Below are positions 717 to 46,733 of a DNA stretch of 46,733 bases, piece by piece. Position 1 is the stretch's first letter; every line of letters begins with the position of its first letter. The notes beneath the pieces were generated by a model. The model did not search any database, was not told the DNA's origin, and worked only from the letters and a program-made list of their open reading frames with translations. The translations under genes and the position numbers were made by a program. Where the stretch lies: positions 1-46,733 of IMG/VR virus record IMGVR_UViG_3300022935_000032; one strand, written 5' to 3'. This stretch comes from a virus.

Positions 717-724
717 TATTTAAT
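717..724 (-). promoter_or_regulatory. Late-type promoter, leaderless geometry
   Basis: Read on the minus strand this is ATTAAATA, followed by GAGTT and then the ATG of the oxygenase gene at 711. It matches the T4 late consensus TATAAATA in 6 of 8 positions, including the TAAATA core. If the element occupies -13 to -6 as in T4, transcription would start on the A of the ATG. The 15-base stretch TAAATAGAGTTATGA recurs at the start of the gene beginning at 21111. Confidence 0.6.
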
Positions 725-19682: not shown

Positions 19683-20356
19683 TATTTGTTCATCATGTTA
19701 AAAAGTTCATCTTTCCATAAGCGTGAAAATTCTCCGTTACGATAATTTTCGAACCATGGTCCGCCTTCAGTGTAGTGTATTAAGTTTGGTTTGTCAAGAT
19801 CTTTATATACTCCAACCAAATAATTCCAAGTGTGATCTAGTTCACCAATCTCGTCATCTTTAAGCCAACTAAACCTATGCAAATATTTTCCTGTTGTTTT
19901 TTCATCGTTAACTAAATCTGTAGTTACTACTTTGTTACTTGGATGTCCGCAGTTCCATAACACAACACTTGACCAATTCTTACGAGGGTAAACAGTTTGC
20001 TTCTGTCCATCCATCTTGAACCCTTCTTCAACTTTGTAATCGTGTTGTACACACATGACTGCATACTTGTCATCTGCTTGATCAAACAGTTCTTTAATAT
20101 CTGTAGTAAGGATCATATCACAATCCATAAACAATGCCCAACCTTCAAAGTTAGTAAGTTCTGGAATAAGAAAACGTGTAAAAGTAAATTCTGTTGAACC
20201 CAATGTATCGATAGGACGAGTGTACCAACCTGCTTCTCTTAACTCGTTTTGTTTTAACGGATGTACTTCTGCGTTAGATTGTCTGCTTATAATACTGTGT
20301 TTGCACACTTGATAAGCAATGTCTTCTCTAGTGTCGTAGCCTACAAATATTTTCAT
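19682..20356 (-). CDS. Glycosyltransferase, GT8-like
   Basis: The 224 residues begin MKIFVGYDTREDIAYQVCKH, a characteristic N-terminus of short GT8-type enzymes. The DxD motif lies in WALFMDCDMI (D78, D80), and HYTEGGPWFENY near the C-terminus gives the usual metal-binding histidine. The DNA overlaps the upstream nucleotidyltransferase-cupin gene by 4 bases (ATGA) and the downstream KpsS-like gene by one. It probably uses a sugar activated in the same operon, which is inference. Confidence 0.82.
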   Translation of the reverse strand: MKIFVGYDTREDIAYQVCKHSIISRQSNAEVHPLKQNELREAGWYTRPIDTLGSTEFTFTRFLIPELTNFEGWALFMDCDMILTTDIKELFDQADDKYAVMCVQHDYKVEEGFKMDGQKQTVYPRKNWSSVVLWNCGHPSNKVVTTDLVNDEKTTGKYLHRFSWLKDDEIGELDHTWNYLVGVYKDLDKPNLIHYTEGGPWFENYRNGEFSRLWKDELFNMMNK

Positions 20357-21111
20357 TTGCGTTCAATGTCCTCTTCTATGCATTTATCTCCATATTGAAT
20401 TTCAACTATTCGACAAGGCGTATCAAAAGGATTAGTTAATTGATGCCATGCATCAACATCAACTTTGTATTCTTCGTGTTTCTCTAAAGTCTTTGGAGGT
20501 ATGTTATATCCGGATTCTAATTTTGAATTAACAACACACTTGCCTTCTGTAACTAGCCAATACTCTGCACGACTTTTATGTCGTTGCATTGATAATTCTT
20601 TTCCAGGATCAACTGTAAGTTCTTTTACTTTACAACCTTCGACTTCGTGTAGTACACGGTAGTAACCCCAAGTACGTTCTGTCTTTGGAGCCTTCCATTC
20701 ATCTAATATCCAACTTGAAGAATTAACTTTGTCTTGACCGCCTACTCCGAAAATAAATTTAACATTATCAAACATCGCCATTTCAGGAATGTTTTTATCT
20801 GTTCTATCTCCACCGTTGGCGAAAATTATTTGATCGTCTATACCGCTAGTTGACTGTGTTTGAAAGATTGCTTGACAAGCACTGTCGTCTTGATCATCAA
20901 AACTAATAACCTTATCAACAATGGATAGTTCTTTGATAATGGCAATTCTTTCTTTGAAAGGCATAAAGGGTCTACCCTTCTTTCGTGTTAGCCATTCATC
21001 AGAGTTAACTCCGACAACTAGCATATCCCCTAGTTCTTTAGCCGCTTTAAAATATTTGATATGACCTGAATGGAGTGGATCAAATCCACCTGTAACTAGC
21101 ACGATTTTCAT
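20353..21111 (-). CDS. Nucleotidyltransferase fused to a cupin domain
   Basis: The true start is 21111 (MKIVLVTGGFDPLHSGHIKY), where a late-type promoter core ends 5 bases upstream; an in-frame ATG at 21186 lies on the far side of that promoter. Residues 1-145 form a cytidylyltransferase-fold domain with the HSGH motif at 14-17, as in HldE/TagD-type enzymes that make ADP-heptose or CDP-alcohols. The usual ISTT motif is replaced by NSSS. Residues 150-252 form a cupin (RTWGYYRVLHEVEG, QRHKSRAEYWLVTEG) like the C-terminal domain of mannose-6-phosphate isomerase type II. The fusion suggests activation of a sugar for the glycosyltransferases that follow. Confidence 0.82.
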   Translation of the reverse strand: MKIVLVTGGFDPLHSGHIKYFKAAKELGDMLVVGVNSDEWLTRKKGRPFMPFKERIAIIKELSIVDKVISFDDQDDSACQAIFQTQSTSGIDDQIIFANGGDRTDKNIPEMAMFDNVKFIFGVGGQDKVNSSSWILDEWKAPKTERTWGYYRVLHEVEGCKVKELTVDPGKELSMQRHKSRAEYWLVTEGKCVVNSKLESGYNIPPKTLEKHEEYKVDVDAWHQLTNPFDTPCRIVEIQYGDKCIEEDIERK

Positions 21112-21116
21112 AACTC

Positions 21117-21124
21117 TATTTACA
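21117..21124 (-). promoter_or_regulatory. Late-type promoter of the glycan operon, leaderless geometry
   Basis: The minus strand reads TGTAAATA (7 of 8 to TATAAATA), then GAGTT, then the ATG at 21111. The predicted transcript start falls on the A of the ATG. TAAATAGAGTTATGA is identical to the start region of the oxygenase gene at 711. Confidence 0.62.
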
Positions 21125-28262: not shown

Positions 28263-28270
28263 TATTTAAT
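28263..28270 (-). promoter_or_regulatory. Possible late-type promoter
   Basis: The minus strand reads ATTAAATA, 6 bases before the ATG at 28256. The core matches the element at 717-724, so the transcript would start about one base before the ATG. A 7-bp inverted repeat (ACACTAA/TTAGTGT, 28271-28294) lies just upstream. Support is weaker than for the GATAAATA elements. Confidence 0.4.
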
Positions 28271-32298: not shown

Positions 32299-34107
32299 TT
32301 AGTGGGCCAATCCCGCCAAAGTTTTAATTCTTGACATTTCTTCGTCTTGACCTGTTACCAATTCCTTCATAATGCCAACAGCATCACGAATTGATTCTTC
32401 ACCATATTTCTTTTCAACTGCTGTCATTACTGCTGTTTCACCTTTAGGGAATTGGTTAGTAGTATAATCAAAGTGTCCTTTGATAAACTCATCTAAAGGT
32501 AATTCTTCTTCTTTATCGTGTAACTCGTCCGGAGCATCTGCTTTTGAAATAGCACCATCTTTGTCAATTTTGACATCCATAGTATCGTCATCTGCGCCTT
32601 TCTCTGCCATTAGTTCTTCTGCTGTCCAAAAGTCTTCAACTTGTAGTCCTGCTAATCTAATAGCATCTTCAAGTGTATGTTCTTCACCATCTGATGTTTT
32701 GAATTTAGTTCCTGGTTTAGCACCTTTTGCTTTTAGTGCTTGTACCTTTTGTGCAAACTCGTTGCCTTCGTTAGTGCCATAGTCATCTGTGATATTGTCT
32801 ATCATACGATCGTGAATTTGTTCAAAATCATCATCTGGATGCAAGCCGTGATCGGTTGAAACATCATTGTACATATCCATTAATGCTTTTTCAATTTCAG
32901 GACCGTGTTTTCCTCTTAGACCTTGATCCATTAATTCATAACCGTCGTCGCTGTTAGCAATTTTAGTCATAAAATCTTCAACACTTTCGCCTTCTTGTAC
33001 TGGACCTTGTTCGTGTTTTGAGTTAGTAACTACGTTGTCTAAGTGTGAAGCATATTCATCTTCCATGCTGTATCTTTCTGTGTCGGTATTTTGCTCAACT
33101 GCTACTTCTTCTTCTTCAGTTTCACCTAACAAGTCCTCAGGTCCTACAACTTTAGATTTACTGCCTTCTTTAACAAGTTTATAAATGTAAGGGAATACAC
33201 CTTTCAGTTCTTCGTTGAACTGACGGATAGTTAATTCATCAATCCAAGTAGATGACACATCTTCTGGAACTTCTTCCATTACAGTTTCTTCAAATGATTC
33301 AAATGCTTCTTTGTAATAATTTTGTCTTTGTAATTTAAAAATTGTTTCTTTAACAGTTTCAATTCTTTCATTAACAATGTCCAAGTAACCGACTAGACCC
33401 TCAGCCATTACACTTGAACGATTCATGTAAGTTTTGAATTGACGTAGTTTGCTAAGTTCTTCGCTGAGTGATACGATGTGCTTACCAAAAGAGTCATATG
33501 CGTTTCCGCCTTCGCTTACGTGCATAGCCATTGCTCTTGCACCATTTAGATGTCTGTAAGGATATTTAAATCTTTCGCCATCTGCACTTTCAATATAAAT
33601 GCTATCAATTTGTTGTGTGCGTCCTGCTGGCGCTTGTTGATCAATTGGATTTCTATGCTTGACTACTAGTCTTGCCTCTCCAACATCTTGAAAACTAGTT
33701 CTGCTAGTTCCATACATCTTACTTTCACTCATTTGTTCATCTCCGGGTCTGTTTGTTGATAGATATTGGTAATCACGTCTATCTAAATTTGTTTTTGTTA
33801 TATCTCTTGTATCAAACTTGAGCATACGCTTTTTTGCAAACTGTCTAAGTTCTTTCATAAAACCAAACCAACTTTCTTTTGTGCTGTTTTCAGCATCACT
33901 TAAAAGATCGTTGCTGTACATTACAGTTAATGCATCTTCATCTACTGTTATATTTACTTTTGATCCTGTAACAAAGTCAAAATCAAAAAATCGTGCTTTA
34001 TTAGGCACATTTGTAATCGTAGAAGATTCGTCCCCTAGTGTTACTTTAGGAAAACGACCTCTAATTTTATTGAATAATTCTTCAGCAATTAAATCCAAGT
34101 TCTTCAT
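32299..34107 (-). CDS. Large acidic protein conserved in marine T4-like phages
   Basis: This 602-residue protein starts MKNLDLIAEELFNKIRGRFP and contains FFDFDFVTGSKVNITVDEDA and FAKKRMLKFDTRDITKTNLD, which I recognise from an abundant but uncharacterised family next to gp17 in marine T4-like phages. The middle and C-terminal parts are very acidic (for example ETEEEEVAVE and KEEELPLDEF). A late promoter GATAAATA ends 5 bases from the ATG, so it is expressed with virion genes and possibly from a leaderless mRNA. A packaged or assembly-associated role is inference. Confidence 0.72.
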   Translation of the reverse strand: MKNLDLIAEELFNKIRGRFPKVTLGDESSTITNVPNKARFFDFDFVTGSKVNITVDEDALTVMYSNDLLSDAENSTKESWFGFMKELRQFAKKRMLKFDTRDITKTNLDRRDYQYLSTNRPGDEQMSESKMYGTSRTSFQDVGEARLVVKHRNPIDQQAPAGRTQQIDSIYIESADGERFKYPYRHLNGARAMAMHVSEGGNAYDSFGKHIVSLSEELSKLRQFKTYMNRSSVMAEGLVGYLDIVNERIETVKETIFKLQRQNYYKEAFESFEETVMEEVPEDVSSTWIDELTIRQFNEELKGVFPYIYKLVKEGSKSKVVGPEDLLGETEEEEVAVEQNTDTERYSMEDEYASHLDNVVTNSKHEQGPVQEGESVEDFMTKIANSDDGYELMDQGLRGKHGPEIEKALMDMYNDVSTDHGLHPDDDFEQIHDRMIDNITDDYGTNEGNEFAQKVQALKAKGAKPGTKFKTSDGEEHTLEDAIRLAGLQVEDFWTAEELMAEKGADDDTMDVKIDKDGAISKADAPDELHDKEEELPLDEFIKGHFDYTTNQFPKGETAVMTAVEKKYGEESIRDAVGIMKELVTGQDEEMSRIKTLAGLAH

Positions 34108-34112
34108 GTTAG

Positions 34113-34120
34113 TATTTATC
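34113..34120 (-). promoter_or_regulatory. Late promoter, leaderless geometry
   Basis: The minus strand reads GATAAATA, then CTAAC, then the ATG at 34107. T4 late geometry would place +1 on the A of the ATG. The element overlaps the stop codon of gp17. Confidence 0.78.
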
Positions 34121-35715
34121 TAATAAACGCCGGTTACAAATATTGGCATGGGTGGCTCAAAATCGTCTTGATCAACGTGATCTGACGCAAACGTATTATA
34201 TACTCTAGGATCCCAGTCTTTGAGCACCTTCATCATACGCAAACTGAGCAATGTTGCACTAACCAAATCGTCAGTTTCACCTGGTTTTGCTTTATAACTT
34301 GTACCACTTGCTACAAATCCTTTTAGTTCTGATATAAGTGCTTTACTATTAATTTTCATAGTATCGCTTTCAATCATACTTTTTAATTTAGCACAAGCAC
34401 TAATTTTAGTTTGATGTGTTGTATTAAATCCTTTACGGAACTTTCTTACGTGACCTTTTCGTATCGGTTCGCTCACAAATAGTCCTGGAATGTTTTCTTC
34501 GCCAATGTCGTTGATAACAATAAGTGCCGCTTCGCCAATAGCATTATTTTCAACACTCCAGTATATGTTACTATTGTTTGGACTTTTAGACATTTGAGAT
34601 ATGTAATTACAAATATCTTGTAGTACTCTAATTTGTCCAGGTATGGGTGTAATATTATGTCGCCATTCTGCAACTTGTTGATAACTAGGTAATTCAAAAA
34701 CTTGAATAGCCGCATAGTCTCCCCCTGTACCCATTGAAGGGTCAAGACTAATACAGTAAGTCATCTTAGGATCAACTTTTTTGTACCAACGTGTTTGTCC
34801 CATATTCTCTACAGGATCGTTTCCTACCATTGATGCAAGTTTAATTGAGTTGATAAGTGTTTCGTCATAAACTAAGAATTCACAACCATACTCACGTCTA
34901 AATCTTTCTTCACCAATACGACCAATTTCTGTTTGTCGCCATTCTTCGTCTCTGTCTGGGTGTTCATCCCAACTAGCAGTAAATCCAAAGAAACCATTTT
35001 GTCCAACACCATTTGCATTTTCATTTCCATGTTCGTCAAATTTCTTTTGACTTTCTTTCCAAATAATAGCAAATGTATCTTCGTCTGAGTTAGGTGTTGA
35101 AGTAATAATTGCACGACCACCTGTTGCTAGTGTAGGTGATATTGAAGTCCAAAATTCGTCAGCAATGTTTGGATTAACGAACGCAAACTCGTCACAGTAT
35201 AATAATGATATGGACATACCTCGTCCAGTGTTGCCTGTTGTGGTAGCACTTACAATACGTGATCCATTTTCAAATTCTAAAGATCCTTTGTTGTATGATG
35301 TAACCCCTGCTCTAATATAGTCTGGACAACATTCATATACATATCTAATACGTTGCATAATTTCTTGGGCACCACTATACTTGTGTGCCGCAATAAGAAT
35401 AGTTTGATCAGGATTGAACATAGCATACCACGTTAAGTAAACTGCCGCACAAGTAGTTTTACCTGTTTGGCGTGGTAGCATATTAACATTAAATCGATGA
35501 TCGTGGTAACTTGCTAAAAGTCTAACTTGATATGTAAACGGATCGAATAGTAATTTGCCTTTTACAGGGTGTTGAATAAATGCAAATTTTCTAGCAAAGT
35601 GTAGATAGCCTGATTTAGGATCCATACAACGTGCTAGATCTTCAATCTGTTCTTCAGTGAAACGTTCTTTTATATGTGCCTTTTTGGTTAAGACACCATC
35701 TAAACTCTTTGCCAT
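34120..35715 (-). CDS. 17: Terminase large subunit gp17
   Basis: gp17 is the ATP-driven DNA packaging motor and headful nuclease at the portal. The 531 residues show the ATPase signature RQTGKT (82-87), Walker B LLYCDEFAF (catalytic E176), coupling motif near TSTPN (206-210), and the RNase H-like nuclease region starting CISLDPSMGTGGD (D325). The length is slightly below T4 gp17 (610). A late promoter lies 8 bases before the ATG and a terminator isolates it from the upstream gene. Confidence 0.95.
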   Translation of the reverse strand: MAKSLDGVLTKKAHIKERFTEEQIEDLARCMDPKSGYLHFARKFAFIQHPVKGKLLFDPFTYQVRLLASYHDHRFNVNMLPRQTGKTTCAAVYLTWYAMFNPDQTILIAAHKYSGAQEIMQRIRYVYECCPDYIRAGVTSYNKGSLEFENGSRIVSATTTGNTGRGMSISLLYCDEFAFVNPNIADEFWTSISPTLATGGRAIITSTPNSDEDTFAIIWKESQKKFDEHGNENANGVGQNGFFGFTASWDEHPDRDEEWRQTEIGRIGEERFRREYGCEFLVYDETLINSIKLASMVGNDPVENMGQTRWYKKVDPKMTYCISLDPSMGTGGDYAAIQVFELPSYQQVAEWRHNITPIPGQIRVLQDICNYISQMSKSPNNSNIYWSVENNAIGEAALIVINDIGEENIPGLFVSEPIRKGHVRKFRKGFNTTHQTKISACAKLKSMIESDTMKINSKALISELKGFVASGTSYKAKPGETDDLVSATLLSLRMMKVLKDWDPRVYNTFASDHVDQDDFEPPMPIFVTGVY

Positions 35716-35723
35716 AGTAAAAG

Positions 35724-35731
35724 TATTTACC
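35724..35731 (-). promoter_or_regulatory. Late promoter of gp17
   Basis: The minus strand reads GGTAAATA, 8 bases before the ATG at 35715. It lies directly against the T-tract of the terminator at 35733-35759, so transcription ends and restarts within about 40 bases. The leader would be about 3 bases. Confidence 0.7.
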
Positions 35732-35732
35732 G

Positions 35733-35759
35733 AAAAAAATAGGGCCCGTAGGCCCTATT
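35733..35759 (-). terminator. Intrinsic terminator after the 35781-36401 gene
   Basis: On the minus strand a 9-bp stem AATAGGGCC/GGCCCTATT with loop TACG runs into a tract of seven T residues. This is a standard rho-independent terminator for the head-gene operon read from the right. Confidence 0.85.
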
Positions 35760-35780
35760 GAGTTTGCTTGATATTAATAA

Positions 35781-36401
35781 TTATTTGCTACAAGAGCAAT
35801 CTTCGCAGTCACCGTCACACTGGCAATCGCCACCGTCATTGCAACCACAACCTTTGCCTTCTGACATATGTTCTTTTAATTTAGCCGCTAGTTCTGCTCT
35901 AAGTTCATCTTCTAATGCCATTGGATTGTCTGCACCATTTGTTGGAGCATATGATTTCTTTTGACCAAAGTCACCGCCGTCGGCAGTCATATCTTTAGTC
36001 ATGTATTGATGGTCTTGATATTTTTCATCTGGTTCGTTTTCGTAATCTTCTGAACATCCTGAATTGCCTAAATGGTTCTTGCCACAAATTGGACAAGGTT
36101 TATCTTGGAGGCCTGGTTTAAGTTCGTCTTTGTCATCCATGTCAGGACCTTTGTCATCCATGTCAGGACCTTTAACAATATCACGTAATTTAGCCATATC
36201 GTCCTCTGGTGGTCCCATTACAGGTGCCATAGGTTTGATTGCTGGCTTAATAACATCTGCGCCTGTGTCGCCTTTTAATGCTTTCATTAACTGAATAACA
36301 TCTTCAGCAGTGTCGCCGGACATATTAATTGAGGCCGATGCCGCTTCGTTTAATGCTTCGTCCAATGCTTCAATCTTTTTATAGATATCTTCGAATTTCA
36401 T
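35781..36401 (-). CDS. Cys-rich acidic phage protein (possible zinc binding)
   Basis: This 206-residue protein starts MKFEDIYKKIEALDEALNEA and has ASINMSGDTAEDVIQLMKAL, a segment common in marine T4-like phages. The tandem heptad GPDMDDK repeats exactly at about residues 78-91. A knuckle CPICGKNHLGNSGC (C-x2-C-x3-H-x6-C) follows, and the extreme C-terminus holds eight cysteines in 23 residues (GCGCNDGG, DCQCDGDCEDCSCSK). Metal binding is likely but its purpose is unknown. It starts 3 bases after its upstream neighbour with the ribosome-binding site GGGAG. Confidence 0.7.
   Translation of the reverse strand: MKFEDIYKKIEALDEALNEAASASINMSGDTAEDVIQLMKALKGDTGADVIKPAIKPMAPVMGPPEDDMAKLRDIVKGPDMDDKGPDMDDKDELKPGLQDKPCPICGKNHLGNSGCSEDYENEPDEKYQDHQYMTKDMTADGGDFGQKKSYAPTNGADNPMALEDELRAELAAKLKEHMSEGKGCGCNDGGDCQCDGDCEDCSCSK
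36128..36169. repeat. Perfect 21-bp tandem repeat, two copies
   Basis: Positions 36128-36148 and 36149-36169 are identical. The repeat lies in frame within the 35781-36401 gene and encodes the duplicated GPDMDDK heptad, so it looks like a recent slippage event or an expandable linker. Confidence 0.9.
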
Positions 36402-36403
36402 AA

Positions 36404-36970
36404 TTAACTCCCTATCGGACTTTTAGCCTTTTCAGCATCATCCATGTGTTGTTGATCTGCGTCTGCTTTAACTTCTGCAATAGGACTGTATGTATTTTCT
36501 TTGCGAACTGCTTCAAGTTCTTTAAGCAAATCCATTACTCTGTTATTGCCTACTTCGTGTTGAGCAGACTCTGCTTCAATTTCTTCTTTTGTAAGCATAG
36601 TTTCATATGGCTCATTGTTTACTGTTTGATAAACTTCTTGCATTGCATTCATGTTACGTACAATAATATGAGAACGAGGAACATTTACATTGTAACTTAG
36701 ATATTCTTGTAATGCTTCATCATGTGTTGGATATGTTACTGTTGCTTCGTAATAGGTTACTTCTTCGTTTTGTAATTGTGGAAAATCTAAAGGTCGTTCT
36801 TGAATAGGTGTTTTCTTGCCTGGAGTTACGTTTGTAACACCAAACTTTCTAAGTGCAACTTCTAATGCTTCTGCAACACCTTCATTATCGCCGGCAATGC
36901 CGATCTTAAATTCGTATGTTTTACCGTTATATGCTTCGGTTAAATAATCGCTGTATTTTTTCATATCCAA
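36404..36970 (-). CDS. Conserved hypothetical protein in the head/packaging operon
   Basis: This 188-residue protein starts MDMKKYSDYLTEAYNGKTYE and has a beta-alpha pattern (FKIGIAGDNEGVAEALEVAL, VTYYEATVTYPTHDEALQEYL). A charged helical C-terminus ends KAKSPIGS. It has its own late promoter (36992-36999) with a TAGGAA ribosome-binding site, and is followed after two bases by the Cys-rich gene. I recognise the neighbourhood from marine T4-like phages, but the function is unknown. Confidence 0.65.
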   Translation of the reverse strand: MDMKKYSDYLTEAYNGKTYEFKIGIAGDNEGVAEALEVALRKFGVTNVTPGKKTPIQERPLDFPQLQNEEVTYYEATVTYPTHDEALQEYLSYNVNVPRSHIIVRNMNAMQEVYQTVNNEPYETMLTKEEIEAESAQHEVGNNRVMDLLKELEAVRKENTYSPIAEVKADADQQHMDDAEKAKSPIGS

Positions 36971-36990
36971 TAGTTCCTATTACTTATATG

Positions 36991-37488
36991 TTATTTATCC
37001 ATGTTTTTTAATTTTTCAAGCAAACTATTACGGTCTGTGACCACATATCCTTCGCCTGCTACTAGGCCGCTGTCTTCGCCACCTTCTTTATCTAATTTTT
37101 CCTTCTTAAGTTGCAATTCTACCATCTTTAATTTTTTATCTAATTTAGCAACTTTAGCATCAAGGTTAGTTTTAAGCATTTGTCCTGCAACTTCAAATAC
37201 CCTACCACTATAACGACTTTCAACGTTCATACCTAAATCCATTAGGTCTTCGTATGCGTCCATGGCCTTTTGTGCAACTTCATTAAGTTCTTTATCAGCC
37301 AATTCACCTAAACCTTTTACTTGTGGTAATGCCGCAGAAATCTTATCAAGTTCAGCAATGCTACGCTGTGTTTCTTCTTGTTCAACAATAGCGTGTTGCT
37401 TTGCTTCTGATTTATCCTTTTTCTTTTCTGCTTCGACAATCTCTTTACTGTCGGGCATATTAAGTAATTCTTCTAGTTTTTTAGTCAT
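36991..37488 (-). CDS. 16: Probable terminase small subunit gp16
   Basis: gp16 recognises DNA and regulates gp17. This 165-residue protein is almost all helical, with a central coiled coil. The region AMDAYEDLMDLGMNVESRYS followed by RVFEVAGQMLKTNLDAKVAK and LKMVELQLKK resembles the core of T4-like gp16. The length matches T4 gp16 (164). It lies two genes upstream of gp17 and has its own late promoter. I consider the assignment likely but not certain, because small terminases diverge quickly. Confidence 0.7.
   Translation of the reverse strand: MTKKLEELLNMPDSKEIVEAEKKKDKSEAKQHAIVEQEETQRSIAELDKISAALPQVKGLGELADKELNEVAQKAMDAYEDLMDLGMNVESRYSGRVFEVAGQMLKTNLDAKVAKLDKKLKMVELQLKKEKLDKEGGEDSGLVAGEGYVVTDRNSLLEKLKNMDK
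36992..36999 (-). promoter_or_regulatory. Late promoter of the 36404-36970 gene
   Basis: The minus strand reads GATAAATA, 21 bases before the ATG at 36970. It lies within the last codons and stop of the gp16 gene. Confidence 0.78.
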
Positions 37489-37514
37489 AGTATAAACCTA
37501 TTAAATGCTACTAT

Positions 37515-37522
37515 TATTTATC
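37515..37522 (-). promoter_or_regulatory. Late promoter of gp16
   Basis: The minus strand reads GATAAATA, 26 bases before the ATG at 37488, overlapping the stop of the gp4 gene. Confidence 0.78.
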
Positions 37523-37961
37523 AACCTTTGCGTGTGCCCTGATGAAAAATGTCTTTTTCGGTTATTACCCTAAAGAATATACCTTTATCTTTACACCATG
37601 CTCTAGCGGCTTCCCATTTAGCCATATTAAGTATAACTTGTGCTTGTTTATACTTATTTCGTCCTGCACTTTCCATAGTAGTTTGATTATCTGGTTTAAC
37701 TTCAATTACTTCTGCTCGTTGTTTACCATTTCTATCCGAATATGCTATGAAGAAATCAGGAACATAAACTGTATGCTTTCCTGTTAGTGGATTTAGATAT
37801 GGGATTTTAACTGCTTCACTTGCCCATTTAGCAACGTTGGGGTTTTCATCACAAAACTTCATAAAAGCAAATTCCCAACTACTTCTATATAAAGGAGTTT
37901 TTCTGCCTACATACTTGTCTGGGTTTTTTAGGTTGTAACGACCTTGGGCAAACTTTGCCAT
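37521..37961 (-). CDS. 4: Head completion protein gp4
   Basis: gp4 acts late in head assembly, preparing the filled head for tail joining, and has a TnsA/restriction-endonuclease-like fold. The 146 residues match T4 gp4 (150) in layout: the N-terminal GRYNLKNPDKYVG, YRSSWEFAFMKFCDENPNV, WASEAVKIPY, and the nuclease core VPDFFIAYSDRNGKQRAEVIEVKPDNQ, whose D and E-x-K residues are the expected catalytic set. It directly follows the 123-residue gene in the tail-to-head operon. Confidence 0.88.
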   Translation of the reverse strand: MAKFAQGRYNLKNPDKYVGRKTPLYRSSWEFAFMKFCDENPNVAKWASEAVKIPYLNPLTGKHTVYVPDFFIAYSDRNGKQRAEVIEVKPDNQTTMESAGRNKYKQAQVILNMAKWEAARAWCKDKGIFFRVITEKDIFHQGTRKG

Positions 37962-37962
37962 G

Positions 37963-38334
37963 TTAAACCTCTATGTTTCTTGCTTCGGTTCTATTTCCTG
38001 TGTCTGAAGTTTTATAACCAAGTGTTGATATTTTTTCTCGGTTATAGTTAAGAACTTCAGTAACTACATTACTTAATTGTATTGTATCTGTTTTCTTAAG
38101 TGTGTCTAATAATGTAAAAACATTAACACCATCTAGTTTTGCTTGTTGCATTAAGACTGTGCCTACAGCAATAGCAGATGTTTTTTCAAATCCTCTACTT
38201 TCAAAAAAACCAATTACAGCATCAACTTGGTTTGAAGGAAAGTTAATGAAACCTGTAAAATATTGATTAAAGAAACGTTTAGTTCCGTCTTCGTTATATC
38301 TGCTTTTTTTCTCTGTTGGTAAATTTCCACTCAT
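37963..38334 (-). CDS. Conserved virion-region protein
   Basis: This 123-residue protein contains RFFNQYFTGFINFPSNQVDA, VIGFFESRGFEKTSAIAVGT and TEVLNYNREKISTLGYKT, which I recognise as a family present in marine T4-like phages between the tail-tube genes and gp4. Function unknown, probably a small structural or assembly protein. It overlaps the 38334-39695 gene by one base and ends one base before the gp4 ATG. Confidence 0.72.
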   Translation of the reverse strand: MSGNLPTEKKSRYNEDGTKRFFNQYFTGFINFPSNQVDAVIGFFESRGFEKTSAIAVGTVLMQQAKLDGVNVFTLLDTLKKTDTIQLSNVVTEVLNYNREKISTLGYKTSDTGNRTEARNIEV

Positions 38335-39695
38335 TATGCAATACCTTTAACAATATTTCCTAAGTTATTTAACGTTTCGTTATTTTGTGCTTCTTTAAAT
38401 GTCGAACTAGCATTATCCCACGCAGAGTTAATTGCGTTAACACTTGCATCACCGCCAGAGGCTAAATGTGTTTTCTTAAACGTTGTAGACTTAGTTAAAT
38501 TATCAAGTGCATCTGGATTAGAAGTTAATGTATTTTTCAAATCAGATATACTTGTTGATTGTGCTAATTTTTGTACTGCGGCAATAGCACTTACACCTGC
38601 TACAGCGTTAGTAATATCTTTTAATGATCCTGTACCAGCAGTTTTAGGAAATAGAGAATTAGCAACACCACCAACAGGTGCTCCACTAACATCTCCTAGT
38701 GCATCTTTTAATATTTGAAATCCTTCTTGTCTAAGACCTTCTTTGCTTAAACTTTTTACATTCTTGGCTAGATTACCTGCTTTAAGAATTGTACCTAGTA
38801 ATCTTCCTGGTGAACTAAATGCATCTCCACTAGTAATATCATTAAACACATCAGCCGCGCCTGATGCAACGCCACCAACACCGAATATGCTAGACGTTCC
38901 GCCACCTTCTAGTGTTAGTGGACTTGGTGTCTTGTCATAATGTTCTTGAGCAAAGCCTTTTGGTGCTGATCCTTCTGTAACTGGTCCTCTCGAATACCAA
39001 ACAGTTTCAAACTCAATTGACATTGTACTTTGTACAGGTTCTGATGTTGATTGATCCATTGTATCGTGTTGCCACGATGAAATGATCGGATTTACAAGTG
39101 TAAACGCTGTATAACGTTTTCTTGACATTTGGTAAACGATAATGCTATTAAAGAAAGGCTCGTAACTGTCATTATCAAAACCATAACGGAATTTATTTTG
39201 TTTGTCAGTTCCGTAAATGTTTGCTCTGTTATATGCTGAAACTTGTGACGGTGCTGGAAGACCTGCTTGGTCAACTGACGCATAGTTACCGTCTTTATAA
39301 TAATATCTATAATAGGCTTCCCACATTGCTGTAGTTACACCGTAGTTATCATCATGGAATGTAATATTACAAGGACTATAATCAATACGTTTTTGTAAGA
39401 CACGTTTTCTATTATATGCGTGTTTCACTTCTGTTGTAATATCAAACTTAGGTAAGTCAACACTCTTAACAAGCATATTAATAGTGTTACTATGCTTCTG
39501 TGTTAACTGTGGAATAATTGCAGACGCATTTGGATTAATTGAAAATGCGACATGGTATAAAAACTTATTCTTAGGAGCATACTTAAATGCATCGTCTACA
39601 TATAATCTAGCCGCGTGTTGCCAATCTCCGAGATTACCTTTCGGACTTAGTGCTCCGCTTGTTAAGTTGTCGAGAAAACCTTTAATACTAGCCAT
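38334..39695 (-). CDS. Tail-tube-fold virion protein (gp19/gp54-type)
   Basis: The N-terminal 240 residues resemble the tail-tube family: LVKSVDLPKFDITTEVKHAY, NRKRVLQKRIDYSPCNITFH and DDNYGVTTAMWEAYYRYYY follow the same order as in tube and tube-initiator proteins. The remaining 200 residues are Gly/Ala/Ser-rich and low in charge. At 453 residues it is far longer than gp19 (163) and nearer to T4 gp48/gp54 (about 320-365), so a baseplate-tube junction role is a reasonable guess. It sits next to gp19 and has a late promoter in leaderless geometry. Confidence 0.68.
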   Translation of the reverse strand: MASIKGFLDNLTSGALSPKGNLGDWQHAARLYVDDAFKYAPKNKFLYHVAFSINPNASAIIPQLTQKHSNTINMLVKSVDLPKFDITTEVKHAYNRKRVLQKRIDYSPCNITFHDDNYGVTTAMWEAYYRYYYKDGNYASVDQAGLPAPSQVSAYNRANIYGTDKQNKFRYGFDNDSYEPFFNSIIVYQMSRKRYTAFTLVNPIISSWQHDTMDQSTSEPVQSTMSIEFETVWYSRGPVTEGSAPKGFAQEHYDKTPSPLTLEGGGTSSIFGVGGVASGAADVFNDITSGDAFSSPGRLLGTILKAGNLAKNVKSLSKEGLRQEGFQILKDALGDVSGAPVGGVANSLFPKTAGTGSLKDITNAVAGVSAIAAVQKLAQSTSISDLKNTLTSNPDALDNLTKSTTFKKTHLASGGDASVNAINSAWDNASSTFKEAQNNETLNNLGNIVKGIA

Positions 39696-39700
39696 ACTAA

Positions 39701-39708
39701 TATTTATC
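39701..39708 (-). promoter_or_regulatory. Late promoter, leaderless geometry
   Basis: The minus strand reads GATAAATA, then TTAGT, then the ATG at 39695. By T4 geometry +1 falls on the A of the ATG. It lies about 25 bases after the T-tract of the terminator at 39733-39759. Confidence 0.78.
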
Positions 39709-40403
39709 TATATGATTATATGGGCAGATAATAAAAAAGGGCGACCTAAGCCGCCCTTTAATTTTGTTGTGATACTAATTATGCGCCGCCGCCGGTAACT
39801 AGAGTATTTACAGTTCTGCCTACAGCAGTACCAATACCAGTACCTTGTGGTGTTTGAATTGCGTTGTCGTATCTGATTGTAAGTGCTACAGTTACAGCAT
39901 AAAGTTGCATAAGCCAACTGATTGTAGTTTGCACTCTCAAGATAACATCCGTACAATTCAAAAGTCTCTAAAACTGTTGCTGTGTTAGCACCGTTACCAC
40001 CATCTAAAATTTCGATTCTAGTAACGAATTTATAGTCTGCACCCGAAGCCGCACTTGACTGTTCAAAGAAGTCGAACTGTTTCTGTAACTGTTCGCCAAC
40101 AAGTTTTTGTACGTTGTTGGATACATCTTCACGTAAGTTAAGTGTGATTGGTTCCCAAGTATGTTTACCTGCTAAAAATACTTTTGAGTTGTAAACATCT
40201 AAGGTGATCTGTTCGAATGAAACGTTAGGTCTAGTAACGTCAACTACTTGCTTAGTAAGTTCTGTAGTTGGGGTACTCACACCAAAGTTTTCTAGCGATA
40301 CCCTAAAGCGGTATTGCAGTTTCGGCATTAACAAACCTTGTGAACTTGAACTTGCGTTGCTGTCCAAAGGCACTGTTAATCTTGAGAGTGATGAAATTGC
40401 CAT
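39708..40403 (-). CDS. 19: Tail tube protein gp19, apparently frameshifted
   Basis: gp19 polymerises into the inner tail tube. The N-terminal part fits the family: PKLQYRFRVSLENFGVSTPT, FEQITLDVYNSKVFLAGKHT, EPITLNLREDVSN, ETFELYGCYLESANYNQLAY. After NQLAYAT, near 39901-39906, this frame turns into a Cys/Tyr/Arg-rich sequence that reads through the terminator. The natural ending, AVTVALTIRYDNAIQTPQGT onward to a TAA at 39779, is in another frame. The intended product is therefore about 208 residues. Either an indel mutation or an assembly error is the simplest cause. A late promoter and an AGGAGC ribosome-binding site precede the ATG. Confidence 0.85.
   Translation of the reverse strand: MAISSLSRLTVPLDSNASSSSQGLLMPKLQYRFRVSLENFGVSTPTTELTKQVVDVTRPNVSFEQITLDVYNSKVFLAGKHTWEPITLNLREDVSNNVQKLVGEQLQKQFDFFEQSSAASGADYKFVTRIEILDGGNGANTATVLETFELYGCYLESANYNQLAYATLCCNCSTYNQIRQRNSNTTRYWYWYCCRQNCKYSSYRRRRIISITTKLKGGLGRPFLLSAHIII
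39733..39759 (-). terminator. Intrinsic terminator after gp19
   Basis: On the minus strand AAAGGGCG, an 8-base loop, CGCCCTTT and then further T residues form a rho-independent terminator 20 bases past the expected gp19 stop at 39779. Its placement supports the view that gp19 should end at 39779, since the frameshifted frame would be translated through the hairpin. Confidence 0.85.
39779..39906 (-). other. Displaced C-terminus of gp19 in another frame
   Basis: This segment encodes the family-typical C-terminus of gp19 (YAVTVALTIRYDNAIQTPQG, then a Gly/Thr-rich end TVNTLVTGGGA) but is out of frame with the upstream part. Joining needs a +1 shift, or restoration of two lost bases, at the ACTTTATGC sequence around 39898-39906 on the minus strand. 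Confidence 0.8.
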
Positions 40404-40422
40404 TATTTGCTCCTATTAATAT

Positions 40423-40430
40423 TATTTATC
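40423..40430 (-). promoter_or_regulatory. Late promoter of gp19
   Basis: The minus strand reads GATAAATA, 19 bases before the gp19 ATG at 40403, with an AGGAGC ribosome-binding site between. Confidence 0.8.
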
Positions 40431-40433
40431 ATA

Positions 40434-43400
40434 TTATAGTCCCGCTATCTCGCCAGTATTTTTAAGTCTTAGTGGAATGTAAATAAATTCTACTGCTTTT
40501 ACTGGTTCAATCGCTATGTCTACATATAACTCGTTTCTGTCAATTCTTGAAGGTGTGTTATTTGATTCATCACACACTACCAAGAAGTCATATAACGCTC
40601 TTTGTCCTACAAGTTCTAGCATTAAACTATCAACTTGCTGTTTAATTTCGTCCCTTGTAATCTTATCGTTTGGTTCAAAGATATAAGGTTTAGCAAGTTT
40701 GTTCAATTGTGAACGTAAGTAAATTACTAGTCTTGCAACGTTAATTCTATCTAACGAACTTGCATTTCTTGCTCTTGTCTTTTGACCATAGTTAACAAGT
40801 CCAGCACCAGTTAAGAATGTAATTGGGTTAACTGCATTGCTGTACAATGTGTCTCTTTGACCTTCGTTAAGAGCAACTGTTTTAAACTCGCCTTCAGCAT
40901 CAATGTAACCTGCACTTGAAGCGTTAGTAATACCACCACGTCTTGTACCTGCTGGTGCAAACCATGGATAAGAAACACTGTCACTTAGTGCAATAGTTCT
41001 TAAGATACCGTGTGATGCTGGTACAACTACGTTGTTACCGGCGTTATCACTTGTGAATAAACTTGGATAAAAGATACCAACATATTCATCACGGCTAACA
41101 AGACCGTCATCGTTATCTTCAACTGCACCTGCTACGTTATTAGCCCAATTATTAAGTGTTGTTGCATCACTCTTAAGTCTAAATGGAGCGTCACCAATAA
41201 CAAATGCTGTTAAGCCTCTGTCGTAGTTTAGTGAAATCATTTCGCCAATTAGTTCTGAGTAACCTGGGCAAGCCATTAAGTTAAAGATTCTTGATTCGTT
41301 ATCTCTAATGTCGTCGTTTGAGTTAACAAGTGCTTGGAAGCCTTGTACAACTACTTTACGCTGTGCTTTTCTACCAAATGATCCTGAACCATCTGGTTGG
41401 TTTGCTGACTCAGTTACCCATCTATGTGGATAGTAATTTGTCATTAACACACCGTCGTCTGTACCGCGGATGTTACGCTCTGCTGTATCAATTGCATTAC
41501 GTACAAACTTTTTAACGTTAAAGCCAGAACGTCTTAGGTTCCATAGCAACATACCTTTTGGATATAGTGCTGGATCTGGAGCGTCTGGATCTAAGTAGTT
41601 ACTTGTTAATAAATCTACAATAGCACCTGCTTCGTCACTGTTTGCACCTGCTGTATTGTAACGTGCATCTGCAAATAGTACACCGTTATCAGTTGACTGA
41701 TCTGAACTATCTCTTAATACCCATTTCTTAGTTGTGAAATTGTATTGATAAACTTGTGGATAGTTTTCTAAGTCTGCTGTTGAAATCCAAAGATCGCCTT
41801 CAACTAGATCTGACCCGTCTGACTGTTTAGTAGGCTCTGTTGCTGAAACAATAGGACCTTCTGGTGAAGTAGATGCGTAACTAACGCTACCTGATTGATA
41901 GTTTTGATAACCTACCCAATCAGTACCGTTGTGGATTAGCATATCAACTTCGTCAACAACTGAATTGTACCATAGTTGACCATCATTTGCTAAAGCACTT
42001 GGTGCGTCATCGTTAGCAGTGTAAGTTAATACTTGCCAGTTAGAAGCCATAAACTCTTTAGGACTTGTAGAATTGTCAGTACCAGGTACATAATATAAGT
42101 TAGCAGTACCTTCTGTTGCACTTACATATGGAGTGAATCCCATATTTCCCAACATACCTGATGTGTCAACAAATCTAATTTCGCCGCCATCGTTGTGTTC
42201 AATAACAACTTTGTTTGAACCATCAACTGATGCAACAACGTTTGTTAAACCTGCTGAGTTAATTTGTCCTGCAATTTCGTCTGCATCTGTCGCCGCGCCT
42301 GTTGCAACAACTTGTACTGTTACTGGCGAACTCATTGTTGCTGAGTTTGTAGTAGACTCTGAAATTGTAAATGTATAAGTGCTTGATGCTACTTTTCCAG
42401 CAGTAATCACATCTGATACTATTTTAGTAGAACCAGCGTTTGCACGTTTGAATAATTTAAAGTTAAACTCTGCATCTGCTTCTTCAGTGACATTTGATTG
42501 TGCATAGTAATTGTCAACTGAAAGATTTAAGCCGCCGCCTGTTGAGTCTAAGTTTTTAAGTGCTGTTTGGTTATCTGGGAAAATTGAAACGTTTTTAGAT
42601 TCAAATAACCCTGTATCGCCGTTAAACACTCTTACAGCAATCAATGCACCTTTGTTAGGCTCTGTAGTTTTAAACCAAACAGATCCACTTGGTCTTGCTT
42701 CTGTGTCAGTTGATTTAAATTCAGGAACACTAGTATGTGCTGAAACTTGAAGTTTTGGAGCATAGTAAGTTTTTTCTGTTAAACCAACTACTGCTAATGC
42801 GCCAGCATTGTCAACTAAAGAAATGTCTGGGCCAGTTGAATAAATTTCAAGTGATCCGTTTGTTGCTTTAGCAGTAATGCCTGCGGCTTGTAGTGTTGAA
42901 TTACCGTTAATGTTTGAAACTAGGTCTGCCAATGTACCAGCACCGGTTACTGTGTTTCCATTAATATCAAATGATCCTGTTAATGTAGGATTAGTTTCGT
43001 CACCGACTGCTGTTGGCCATGAACCAACCCATGCACTTGAACCGACTTTCACCCAAGTACCGTTTGCATTCTTGTACCAAACTCTGTTAATTGTAGTAGT
43101 AGCAACAACAGCGTATTCACCAATTTGTCCAACAGAAGATTTTGGTCCGTCGTTTGCGCCAGTACCCGAATTAAAGTTTTCAAGTTTAGTACCATCTGTA
43201 ATTACTGTAGGTACTTTGTTAGTAAATGTTTGTCCGCCTGTAGATGTTACAGCGTTGCCGTTCCATTCAAAGATCCCGTATCTAGTTGAACCAGTGTCGA
43301 ACCAATGAGTTCCGTCTGCTGGATCAGCCGCCGGAGCAGTTGCTGATGCTTGGAGTTCTCCTAAGTCAATGTCTGCTCTAACAACCCATGCTCTGTTTGA

Positions 43401-43712
43401 AACACCTAAGTATGAATAAGCCGCTTGTAAGCCATATTCATTTAGTTCCGAACCGTGAATTGGATTGTTGTTATTGTCTGTATAAAATAATGGATCTCCG
43501 AAAGTCTCGGATAAATCTCTTTGTGATGTTAGCAAGAACGGAACGCCAGCGTTTGCTTTCGTTGTGCCTCTTGCTGTACCTGTGCCACTTGCATTCGCTT
43601 TGTCTTGTGCAGTAGCAACAAAAATCATTGGGGTAGTACCCGGTTCCGCTGGGGTATAAAAACTTTCGTCGATTACCGAAACCTGTACACCTGGTGATAC
43701 TAAGTTTGCCAT
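40434..43712 (-). CDS. 18: Tail sheath protein gp18 with large insertion
   Basis: gp18 forms the contractile sheath. The N-terminus (LVSPGVQVSVIDESFYTPAE, residues 4-23) and C-terminus (from about 680, including YPHRWVTES, NLMACPGYSELIGEMIS, KITRDEIKQQVDSLMLELV) are standard sheath segments. At 1,092 residues it is over 400 longer than T4 gp18 (659). The extra material, about residues 120-670, holds four copies of a W-x-x-T ... Y/F-NG-x-W module (near 137, 346, 581, 642). It also holds two segments resembling flagellin-IN sequences (near 248-293 and 445-513), so the surface is probably heavily decorated. A late promoter lies 40 bases upstream. Confidence 0.92.
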   Translation of the reverse strand: MANLVSPGVQVSVIDESFYTPAEPGTTPMIFVATAQDKANASGTGTARGTTKANAGVPFLLTSQRDLSETFGDPLFYTDNNNNPIHGSELNEYGLQAAYSYLGVSNRAWVVRADIDLGELQASATAPAADPADGTHWFDTGSTRYGIFEWNGNAVTSTGGQTFTNKVPTVITDGTKLENFNSGTGANDGPKSSVGQIGEYAVVATTTINRVWYKNANGTWVKVGSSAWVGSWPTAVGDETNPTLTGSFDINGNTVTGAGTLADLVSNINGNSTLQAAGITAKATNGSLEIYSTGPDISLVDNAGALAVVGLTEKTYYAPKLQVSAHTSVPEFKSTDTEARPSGSVWFKTTEPNKGALIAVRVFNGDTGLFESKNVSIFPDNQTALKNLDSTGGGLNLSVDNYYAQSNVTEEADAEFNFKLFKRANAGSTKIVSDVITAGKVASSTYTFTISESTTNSATMSSPVTVQVVATGAATDADEIAGQINSAGLTNVVASVDGSNKVVIEHNDGGEIRFVDTSGMLGNMGFTPYVSATEGTANLYYVPGTDNSTSPKEFMASNWQVLTYTANDDAPSALANDGQLWYNSVVDEVDMLIHNGTDWVGYQNYQSGSVSYASTSPEGPIVSATEPTKQSDGSDLVEGDLWISTADLENYPQVYQYNFTTKKWVLRDSSDQSTDNGVLFADARYNTAGANSDEAGAIVDLLTSNYLDPDAPDPALYPKGMLLWNLRRSGFNVKKFVRNAIDTAERNIRGTDDGVLMTNYYPHRWVTESANQPDGSGSFGRKAQRKVVVQGFQALVNSNDDIRDNESRIFNLMACPGYSELIGEMISLNYDRGLTAFVIGDAPFRLKSDATTLNNWANNVAGAVEDNDDGLVSRDEYVGIFYPSLFTSDNAGNNVVVPASHGILRTIALSDSVSYPWFAPAGTRRGGITNASSAGYIDAEGEFKTVALNEGQRDTLYSNAVNPITFLTGAGLVNYGQKTRARNASSLDRINVARLVIYLRSQLNKLAKPYIFEPNDKITRDEIKQQVDSLMLELVGQRALYDFLVVCDESNNTPSRIDRNELYVDIAIEPVKAVEFIYIPLRLKNTGEIAGL

Positions 43713-43752
43713 TTATGCTCTCCTGTTGAACTTAACATAAGTTTGTTAATAG

Positions 43753-43760
43753 TATTTATG
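43753..43760 (-). promoter_or_regulatory. Late promoter of gp18
   Basis: The minus strand reads CATAAATA, 40 bases before the ATG at 43712, with a GGAG ribosome-binding site nearer the start. Confidence 0.75.
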
Positions 43761-43815
43761 TCATTGATTGTTTTTCTATACTTTATTATAGTCAAAAAAG
43801 GGCAAAAAAAGGTAT

Positions 43816-43823
43816 GATAAATA
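43816..43823 (+). promoter_or_regulatory. Late promoter, leaderless geometry, plus strand
   Basis: GATAAATA followed by CCTAT and the ATG at 43829. By T4 geometry +1 falls on the A of this ATG, which also argues against the in-frame ATG at 43814, since that lies inside the promoter. Confidence 0.78.
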
Positions 43824-43828
43824 CCTAT

Positions 43829-44161
43829 ATGAGACCTTTATGTAGTTGTGGACAGCGTCCTGTAGCAGTTAATTACAAGAAGAATGGTAAAACATTCTAT
43901 AGAACTAAATGTGATACCTGCTTAAGAAATGGAGAGCCTAAGAAGCCAAGATGGTACCAGTCCGGATACCGTCAGTTAACAAATTGTGAAAAATGCGGAT
44001 TCAAAGCAAGTTATAAAGAACAACTACGTGTATACCACATTGATGGTAACCTAGAAAACTGTCGACCTAGTAATCTTAAAACTATATGTGCAAACTGTCA
44101 GATTGCTATGCAGAGAGAAGGCGTCCGGTGGAAACAAGGCGATCTTGCACCTGACTTCTAA
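43829..44161 (+). CDS. HNH endonuclease-like zinc protein
   Basis: The 110-residue protein begins MRPLCSCGQRPVAVNYKKNG. It has cysteine pairs C5/C7 and C28/C31. An HNH-type core follows: C53-x2-C56, the catalytic HIDGN (H70, N74), N82 in PSNLKTICANC, and C87-x2-C90. I recognise this family from marine T4-like phages at the same position. The activity could be a nicking endonuclease or a degenerate DNA-binding protein. It lies on the opposite strand from its neighbours, and its last 56 bases overlap the end of the dNMP kinase gene. Confidence 0.8.
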   Translation: MRPLCSCGQRPVAVNYKKNGKTFYRTKCDTCLRNGEPKKPRWYQSGYRQLTNCEKCGFKASYKEQLRVYHIDGNLENCRPSNLKTICANCQIAMQREGVRWKQGDLAPDF

Positions 44162-45537: not shown

Positions 45538-45559
45538 AATTCTTTTCGGTCTCCACTTG

Positions 45560-45567
45560 TATTTATG
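45560..45567 (-). promoter_or_regulatory. Late promoter of gp13
   Basis: The minus strand reads CATAAATA, 22 bases before the ATG at 45537. It is back to back with the plus-strand late promoter at 45573-45580, leaving only five bases between the two elements. Confidence 0.78.
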
Positions 45568-45572
45568 CTAAC

Positions 45573-45580
45573 GATAAATA
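45573..45580 (+). promoter_or_regulatory. Late promoter of the right-edge structural gene
   Basis: GATAAATA, followed by 8 bases and the ATG at 45589. The predicted leader is about 3 bases, so translation is again nearly leaderless. Confidence 0.75.
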
Positions 45581-45588
45581 CTATTGTT

Positions 45589-46733
45589 ATGCCAAGAATA
45601 AGTTTATATAAACCGGAAAAGGGCAAAGATTACGATTTCCTCGACAAAACCATCACCGAGATGTTTACTGTTGGCGGAACTGATGTATTTGTCCACAAGT
45701 ATTTAGGGCCTAAAAATCCCGACGAAGAGGATGCTACTCCTACACAGCCTCATTATGACGCTGTAAAAGAAACTAACATACAGGATATGTTGTTTATGGA
45801 GAATAGAGATCGTAAGTACGATCCGGACATTTATACAATACGTGGAATTTATAATGTACAAGATGTTGACTTTGATATGAGTCAATTTGGTTTATTTTTA
45901 ACCAATGATACATTGTTTATGACTATTCCTATTAATTATAGTGTAAAAACATTAGGCAGAAAAGTAATGCCAGGTGATGTTTTTGAACTTCCACATTTAA
46001 AAGACGAAAATGCACTTAATGATTATCAAGTAGCATTAAAACGTTTTTACGTTGTAGAAGATGTAAACAGAGCCGCAGAAGGATTTACACAAACTTGGTA
46101 TCCACATTTATATAGAGTAAAACTAAAACAAATAGTAGACTCTCAAGAATTTAAAGACATACTTGATTTACCTGCAGAAGAAGGAAGTACAAATACATTA
46201 CGTGATGTCCTTTCTACCTACGAAAAAGAAATGCAGATTAATAATGCAGTTATACAACAAGCAGAATCAGATGCGGCAAAATCAGGTTATGATACAACTA
46301 GTTTTTATACACTTCAAGTTGATGCACAGGGCAATCCAGAACTTGTCGGTGCTGACGAAACACTTATTGATGCTAGTATTGCTAGTGGAAACCTAGATGC
46401 TAGTAGAGTTAATCAAACTCCAGAGGCAACTGGATACCAAGGTTACTTAATTGGTGATGGTATTCCGCCTAATGGTGAACAGTTTGGATTTGGCAGTTCT
46501 TTCCCATTAGCAAGTACAGTAGGCGACTTTTATTTGAGAACAGATTTTATGCCAAACAGACTATTTAGATATGACGGACAGCGTTGGGTTAAACAAGAAG
46601 ATAACGTAAGAATGACAATGACTCAAACAAACGATCGCAAAACTTATAAAACAGATTTTGTTAACAATACAAAATCAACCACTATTGGTGGAGAAACTGT
46701 TGAAGAAAGACAGAGTTTGTCTAAAGTACTTAG
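45589..46733 (+). CDS. Neck-region virion structural protein (partial, 5' part)
   Basis: The frame is open to the window edge, giving 381 residues of an incomplete protein. It starts MPRISLYKPEKGKDYDFLDK and contains MFTVGGTDVFVHKYLGPKNP, NIQDMLFMENRDRKYDPDIY and VDFDMSQFGLFLTNDTLFMT, which I recognise from a large virion-protein family adjoining gp13 in marine T4-like phages. Whether it corresponds to gp14 or is additional I cannot say. Near residue 310-330 it carries GDFYLRTDFMPNRLFRYDGQ followed by RW, the same type of module that is repeated in the sheath insertion. Confidence 0.75.
   Translation, partial: MPRISLYKPEKGKDYDFLDKTITEMFTVGGTDVFVHKYLGPKNPDEEDATPTQPHYDAVKETNIQDMLFMENRDRKYDPDIYTIRGIYNVQDVDFDMSQFGLFLTNDTLFMTIPINYSVKTLGRKVMPGDVFELPHLKDENALNDYQVALKRFYVVEDVNRAAEGFTQTWYPHLYRVKLKQIVDSQEFKDILDLPAEEGSTNTLRDVLSTYEKEMQINNAVIQQAESDAAKSGYDTTSFYTLQVDAQGNPELVGADETLIDASIASGNLDASRVNQTPEATGYQGYLIGDGIPPNGEQFGFGSSFPLASTVGDFYLRTDFMPNRLFRYDGQRWVKQEDNVRMTMTQTNDRKTYKTDFVNNTKSTTIGGETVEERQSLSKVL

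Follow-up and report, generated by a model that had tools for sequence, protein, structure and literature searches.

The late promoters of bacteriophage T4 carry the box TATAAATA and are served by gp55, gp33 and gp45. This box spans positions -13 to -6 (PMC1524935), and the transcription start (+1) is therefore the sixth base after TAAATA. Leaderless mRNAs are abundant in Mycobacterium tuberculosis and Deinococcus deserti, with lambda cI as another example (PMC9031893), and according to a reference cited within that paper they require an AUG start codon, which mRNAs led by a Shine-Dalgarno (SD) sequence do not. Neither T4-type late promoters nor leaderless mRNAs are new in themselves. A conserved class of virion genes whose late promoter doubles as the translation start region, however, appears to be undescribed, and the literature searched, most subscription journals lying outside it, yielded no account of leaderless late mRNAs from T4-type phages. 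Here we describe a candidate for such a class in a widespread group of large marine phages, starting from the virus record IMGVR_UViG_3300022935_000032, of which the whole 46.7-kb stretch analysed (46,733 nucleotides (nt), hereafter the window) is a fragment of a jumbo-type marine myovirus.

Elements resembling the TATAAATA box lie upstream of late genes in the window. Ahead of the virion genes they form an extended motif, a TAAATA core usually preceded by a G and then an A. A preliminary description, made from this sequence, had placed five of them exactly 5 nt before an ATG, three more at gaps of 6 or 8 nt and all other late elements at least 19 nt away, and had proposed from the T4 geometry that the close ones give leaderless mRNAs. 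The sites were all found at those positions and gaps, and the T4 geometry is borne out by the literature cited above. The close elements and the genes that they precede are the following.

34113..34120, minus strand: late element GATAAATA, 5 nt before the ATG (34105-34107) of a virion structural protein gene (32299..34107, 602 amino acids, phrog_13484, E=5e-15), predicted leaderless
35724..35731, minus strand: late element GGTAAATA, 8 nt before the ATG (35713-35715) of the terminase large subunit (TerL) gene (34120..35715, phrog_36964, E=1e-124), predicted near-leaderless with the 3-nt leader ACU
39701..39708, minus strand: late element GATAAATA, 5 nt before the ATG (39693-39695) of a second tube-fold protein gene (38334..39695, 453 amino acids, phrog_13438, tail tube, E=1e-16), predicted leaderless
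43816..43823, plus strand: late element GATAAATA, 5 nt before the ATG (43829-43831) of a small HNH protein gene (43829..44161, phrog_10822, E=3e-5), divergent from the sheath gene and predicted leaderless
21117..21124, minus strand: late element TGTAAATA, 5 nt before the ATG (21109-21111) of a nucleotidyltransferase-like gene (20353..21111, phrog_7878, E=1e-32), predicted leaderless
717..724, minus strand: late element ATTAAATA, 5 nt before the ATG (709-711) of a 2-oxoglutarate (2OG)-Fe(II) oxygenase gene (127-711)
28263..28268, minus strand: TAAATA core, 6 nt before the ATG (28254-28256) of gene 27510-28256
45573..45580, plus strand: late element GATAAATA, 8 nt before the ATG (45589-45591) of g45589, a gene that extends past the window end

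Five elements with longer spacing served as comparators.

40423..40430, minus strand: element GATAAATA, 19 nt before the tail-tube ATG (40403), SD-led
45560..45567, minus strand: element CATAAATA, 22 nt before the adaptor ATG (45537), SD-led
37515..37522, minus strand: element GATAAATA, 26 nt before the terS-like ATG (37488)
36992..36999, minus strand: element GATAAATA, 27 nt before an ATG at 36964
43753..43760, minus strand: element CATAAATA, 40 nt before the sheath ATG (43712), SD-led

We consider it very probable that in a selected class of late genes T4-type late promoters give mRNAs with leaders of only 0-3 nt. The elements would be late promoters of the gp55 class, and the late genes would start in two ways. 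Those of the SD-led class have a promoter 15-48 nt before the ATG and a leader that usually contains an SD. Those of the leaderless class have just 4-5 nt, or at times 6-8 nt, between the end of the TAAATA core and the ATG, and transcription from position 5 or 6 after the core would produce an mRNA beginning with the A of AUG, or one with a leader of 2-3 nt such as ACU-AUG. The elements are placed so that the predicted +1 falls at the start codon or within a few nucleotides of it. Ribosomes would translate such mRNAs by binding the 5'-terminal AUG directly, with no SD involved.

The spacing was followed through 160 related loci from two IMG/VR scans, including some from contigs 237-275 kb long. 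Start codons were assigned gene by gene from protein alignments of the orthologues, in a step that favoured ATG. The gap was 4-8 nt in 66/66 distinct orthologues of the structural protein, 4-7 nt in 61/61 of HNH and 5-8 nt in 25 of the 26 of g45589; among orthologues having an element, it was 4-8 nt in all 56 for TerL, 4-6 nt in 76 of 81 for the second tube-fold gene, and exactly 5 in all 18 for the nucleotidyltransferase. Gene 28256 had a gap of 5-8 nt in 11/15 orthologues. For the 2OG-oxygenase the order element-N4/5-ATG was present in 16 of 17 distinct close relatives; several oxygenase relatives read TAAATATGTTTATG, where one ATG overlaps the element and the gap-5 ATG matches the start of the window protein. 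Longer spacings are also kept, less exactly. The element stands 15-27 nt before the ATG in tail tube orthologues (SD in 77/77), 29-48 nt in sheath (SD in 55/55), mostly 16-21 nt in adaptor (SD in 26/30), mostly 23-27 nt in terS-like orthologues, with few recognisable SDs, and mostly 18-27 nt in those of the 36964 gene. In the five relatives for which the major capsid gene was located, it carries the strong SD AAGGAG. Gap lengths vary little in the structural protein, HNH, TerL and nucleotidyltransferase genes, with a standard deviation of roughly 1 nt at most, against 2-6 nt in the longer class. Insertions and deletions therefore do occur, but the close class does not keep them. The preliminary description had made conservation of the spacing its test, which the proposal withstood: the relatives gave 4-8 nt in nearly all orthologues with an element, against 15-48 nt for the SD-led neighbours. 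Its strict value of 5 nt needs to be relaxed: the relatives have 4 or 5 nt, sometimes 6-8, although the raw genome-wide peak in them is indeed at gap 5.

All orthologues with a gap of 4-8 nt start with ATG, as favoured by the start-fixing step, and their spacers are too short for an SD; SD-like matches sit upstream of the element or inside it. In a few relatives an SD lies within a longer second tube-fold spacer (GATAAATATTAGTAAGGAGAGTTCGATG in L151, where others have GATAAATATTAGTATG), and L146, a relative at g45589, combines an SD with a TTG start. These gains of an SD fit the rule that leaderless mRNAs need AUG and SD-led ones do not. The same gene in leaderless and SD-led forms among relatives amounts to a natural experiment. 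Wrong start codons were considered and rejected, since the protein alignments begin at these ATGs, the annotated starts of the Pelagibacter phage HTVC008M are equivalent, and SD-led versions share the same N-terminus. A weaker 5' mRNA structure in the leaderless genes was not found either, the difference being slight and in the opposite direction.

The same two classes appear genome-wide in three large relatives, G001 (262 kb), G002 (275 kb) and G003 (237 kb), when intergenic elements with a downstream ATG reading frame are counted, in agreement with the two-class distribution first proposed from the window. Elements at 4-5 nt number 12/68, 17/72 and 17/67 respectively (46/207 in total); few lie at 6-14 nt, and then comes a broad class at 15-59 nt. 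The gap-5 peak is seen for ATG and is absent for GTG or TTG, and the close class recurs at orthologous genes (HNH, TerL, nucleotidyltransferase, g45589 and several small genes). Control phages gave 0/41 (T4), 0/34 (Syn9), 0/17 (phiM12), 3/71 (P-SSM2) and 2/74 (PA5oct) at 4-5 nt, together 5/237, which differs from the large relatives at p=6e-12 (Fisher). No close class was seen in phiM12, whose host is Sinorhizobium, and an alphaproteobacterial host alone therefore does not predict it. In the window itself the exact 5-nt pattern occurs five times versus 1.5 expected in dinucleotide shuffles, 7/400 of which were as high. The two-class pattern is secure because orthologues conserve the spacing and the three relatives of 237-275 kb show the same distribution. 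Chance matches in AT-rich DNA are rejected by the orthologue conservation and the control phages, even though the window-only statistics are weak.

The likely start point was examined with the longer-leader promoters, in which the bases after the element are unconstrained by a start codon. A pyrimidine-purine step occurs at position 6 after TAAATA in 68% of them overall and in 81-90% for the tube, sheath and terS-like genes; one longer-leader gene has the step at position 5 instead (78%). Positions 6 and 5 are the A of the ATG at gap 5 and gap 4, respectively. At gap 8 the step is at position 6 in 11/11 cases, which predicts a 3-nt leader, and all 16 cases with gap 6 have an A at position 5, which predicts one of 2 nt. 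A start at the sixth base after the box would agree with these frequencies. Two intrinsic terminators also bear on the leader.

35738..35759, minus strand: intrinsic terminator directly upstream of the TerL promoter
39736..39759, minus strand: intrinsic terminator upstream of the second tube-fold promoter

Among orthologues, a terminator immediately precedes the promoter in 48/73 for TerL and in 69/82 for the second tube-fold gene, with 0 in shuffles, and terminator-like sequences upstream of the promoters of other genes number 0-1. Because the terminators abut these two promoters, readthrough cannot supply a longer leader. The initiator of the SD-led promoters and the position of the terminators thus lend independent support to the proposed +1 at the A of the ATG. 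Translational coupling is unlikely for HNH, g45589 and the nucleotidyltransferase gene, each of which diverges from its neighbours, as well as for TerL and the second tube-fold gene (terminators).

A second lineage shows a similar arrangement. HTVC008M is a cultured T4-like phage classed in the Kyanoviridae with the cyanophages. In its genome 12/42 elements lie at 4-5 nt, before gp2, gp4, the tail tube cap, the tape measure, a baseplate wedge gene, CsgF and an oxygenase, and the ATGs concerned are the RefSeq start codons. The gp2 and gp4 genes are divergent, and the 26 bp between their ATGs (18917-18942, L299) contain both opposed late elements. The gene examined most fully, the baseplate gene, retains gap 5 across eight distinct relatives; of the adaptor gene, some versions are close and others SD-led. 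The literature searched contained no description of this property in HTVC008M. Exact 5' ends are thus predicted for a cultured phage. Close-class promoters affect start-codon and promoter calling in abundant marine phages, and may partly account for the failure of late-promoter prediction in pelagimyophages that one study reports (PMC7029224).

As to the machinery, a gp55-class late sigma factor (phrog_12791) was found in the genomes G001, G005, G006 and G007 with E below 1e-79, and in PA5oct too. A Pfam search for the clamp gave no matches, control genomes included. Several observations weigh against the proposal that the close elements are late promoters of leaderless mRNAs. This sigma factor was not found in G002 or G003, nor in the 46-kb window, and no match to the T4-type clamp (phrog_223) was found in the jumbo clade; PA5oct and RaK2 gave none either. 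The statistics from the window alone are modest and would not convince by themselves, a looser 3-9 nt pattern there (11 versus 9.9 expected) is not above chance, and gap 4 taken alone is not above shuffles genome-wide. The start site itself is read from sequence statistics. Fifteen of 73 TerL orthologues (e.g. L140, L017) have neither an element nor an SD within 70 nt. With the TerL stop only 12 nt ahead of it, the gene at 34107 is the one plausible candidate for translational coupling, and HNH orthologues often have a GAGG abutting the element, about 10 nt before the ATG, which could serve as an SD if longer mRNAs exist.

These last two observations would be expected if the genes were translated mainly from longer mRNAs started upstream, through coupling or weak SDs, the close promoter being incidental or giving a minor untranslated product. 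We regard this as improbable given the terminators ahead of the TerL and second tube-fold promoters and the divergent orientation of HNH, g45589 and the nucleotidyltransferase gene; moreover, translation from longer mRNAs would not require a spacing held to 1-4 nt. It is more improbable still that TAAATA near the ATG is no promoter at all, and acts as an AU-rich translation enhancer or is a chance match. The genome is AT-rich and the looser window pattern is at chance level, but SD-led virion genes have the same extended motif, followed by a pyrimidine-purine step, 15-48 nt ahead of them, and most other A4T2 hexamers lack a 4-5 nt class, AAATAT, which overlaps the element, being a partial exception.

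A different objection accepts the short leaders as real and attributes them to genome compaction in hosts tolerant of leaderless mRNAs, as a side effect without regulatory meaning. The intergenic regions are very short, and the close class is also seen in the second marine lineage, which infects the streamlined SAR11. However, T4, Syn9 and PA5oct show little or no close class, and class membership is gene-specific and conserved while adjacent genes keep longer leaders. This explanation concerns purpose and not anatomy, is only weakly excluded, and seems to us a serious if somewhat doubtful possibility. For leaderless late transcription as proposed here, the anatomy and its conservation are directly observed, as are the initiator position in SD-led promoters, the terminators upstream and the gain of an SD in some lineages; the actual 5' ends, the gp55 dependence of each promoter and the route of translation we infer from them.

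What the split might achieve is speculative. Perhaps the leaderless class comprises the lower-copy late proteins (terminase, structural protein, second tube-fold protein, HNH protein, enzymes), SD leaders being retained for capsid, tube and sheath, and lower output would then be set by the leaderless class. It is unlikely, though conceivable, that at least two marine phage lineages independently split a late regulon of the gp55 type into an SD-led and a leaderless part, whose relative output can be shifted by changing the ribosome in the course of infection, for example through a phage bS21; the link of bS21 to leaderless translation is only an idea. As a separate observation, ribosomal protein bS21 is encoded by all three large relatives (L234, L235, L236). 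That of G001 has only five weak cellular matches, four of them in alphaproteobacterial metagenome-assembled genome contigs, at 45-48% identity, a weak hint of the host.

Other features of the window concern individual genes. The adaptor gene (SD-led) and g45589 (close class) diverge from a 51-bp gap at 45538-45588, in which two opposed late elements stand just 5 bp apart. HNH promoters of relatives (window 43770-43828, plus strand) carry tandem AAAAGG-type repeats upstream of the element, in the form AAAAAGG...AAAAAGGTGAGG-TAAATA, possibly a regulatory site or a second promoter; the HNH gene also has a possible in-frame ATG further upstream, at 43814. In this contig the tail-tube frame (39708-40403, minus strand) shifts from about residue 167 onward and crosses the terminator into the next promoter, whereas the tail-tube proteins of relatives have 208-220 amino acids and end before the terminator. 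The shift is probably a sequencing or assembly error, and given the shifted frame the gene does not truly end at the TAG that overlaps the 39708 element.

Compared with described systems, the window elements are like T4 late promoters in the TAAATA core, the lack of an evident -35 requirement, the predicted start at the sixth base and the gp55-class sigma factor of relatives. They differ in that the first box base is usually G here and T in T4, and in that 0/41 intergenic T4 elements lie 4-8 nt before an ATG. Like bacterial leaderless mRNAs, the close class combines a promoter element immediately upstream of the ATG, the lack of an SD and an AUG start; unlike them, its predicted promoter is a phage late element for a gp55-class sigma factor and its genes are late virion and packaging genes. 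The Pseudomonas phage PA5oct, the nearest well-annotated cultured relative examined, has a virion gene order identical to that of the window (adaptor, deoxynucleoside monophosphate kinase, sheath, tail tube, second tube-fold protein, head closure, TerL, structural protein) and late elements with SD-led tube and sheath genes, but its TerL, structural-protein and second tube-fold genes have no close element, and only 2/74 of its elements lie at 4-5 nt. HTVC008M shares TAAATA-N5-ATG with the window clade before gp2, gp4, the tail tube cap, the tape measure and the baseplate gene, and is distinguished from it by belonging to a different T4-like family and by a spacer that is typically GTANN.

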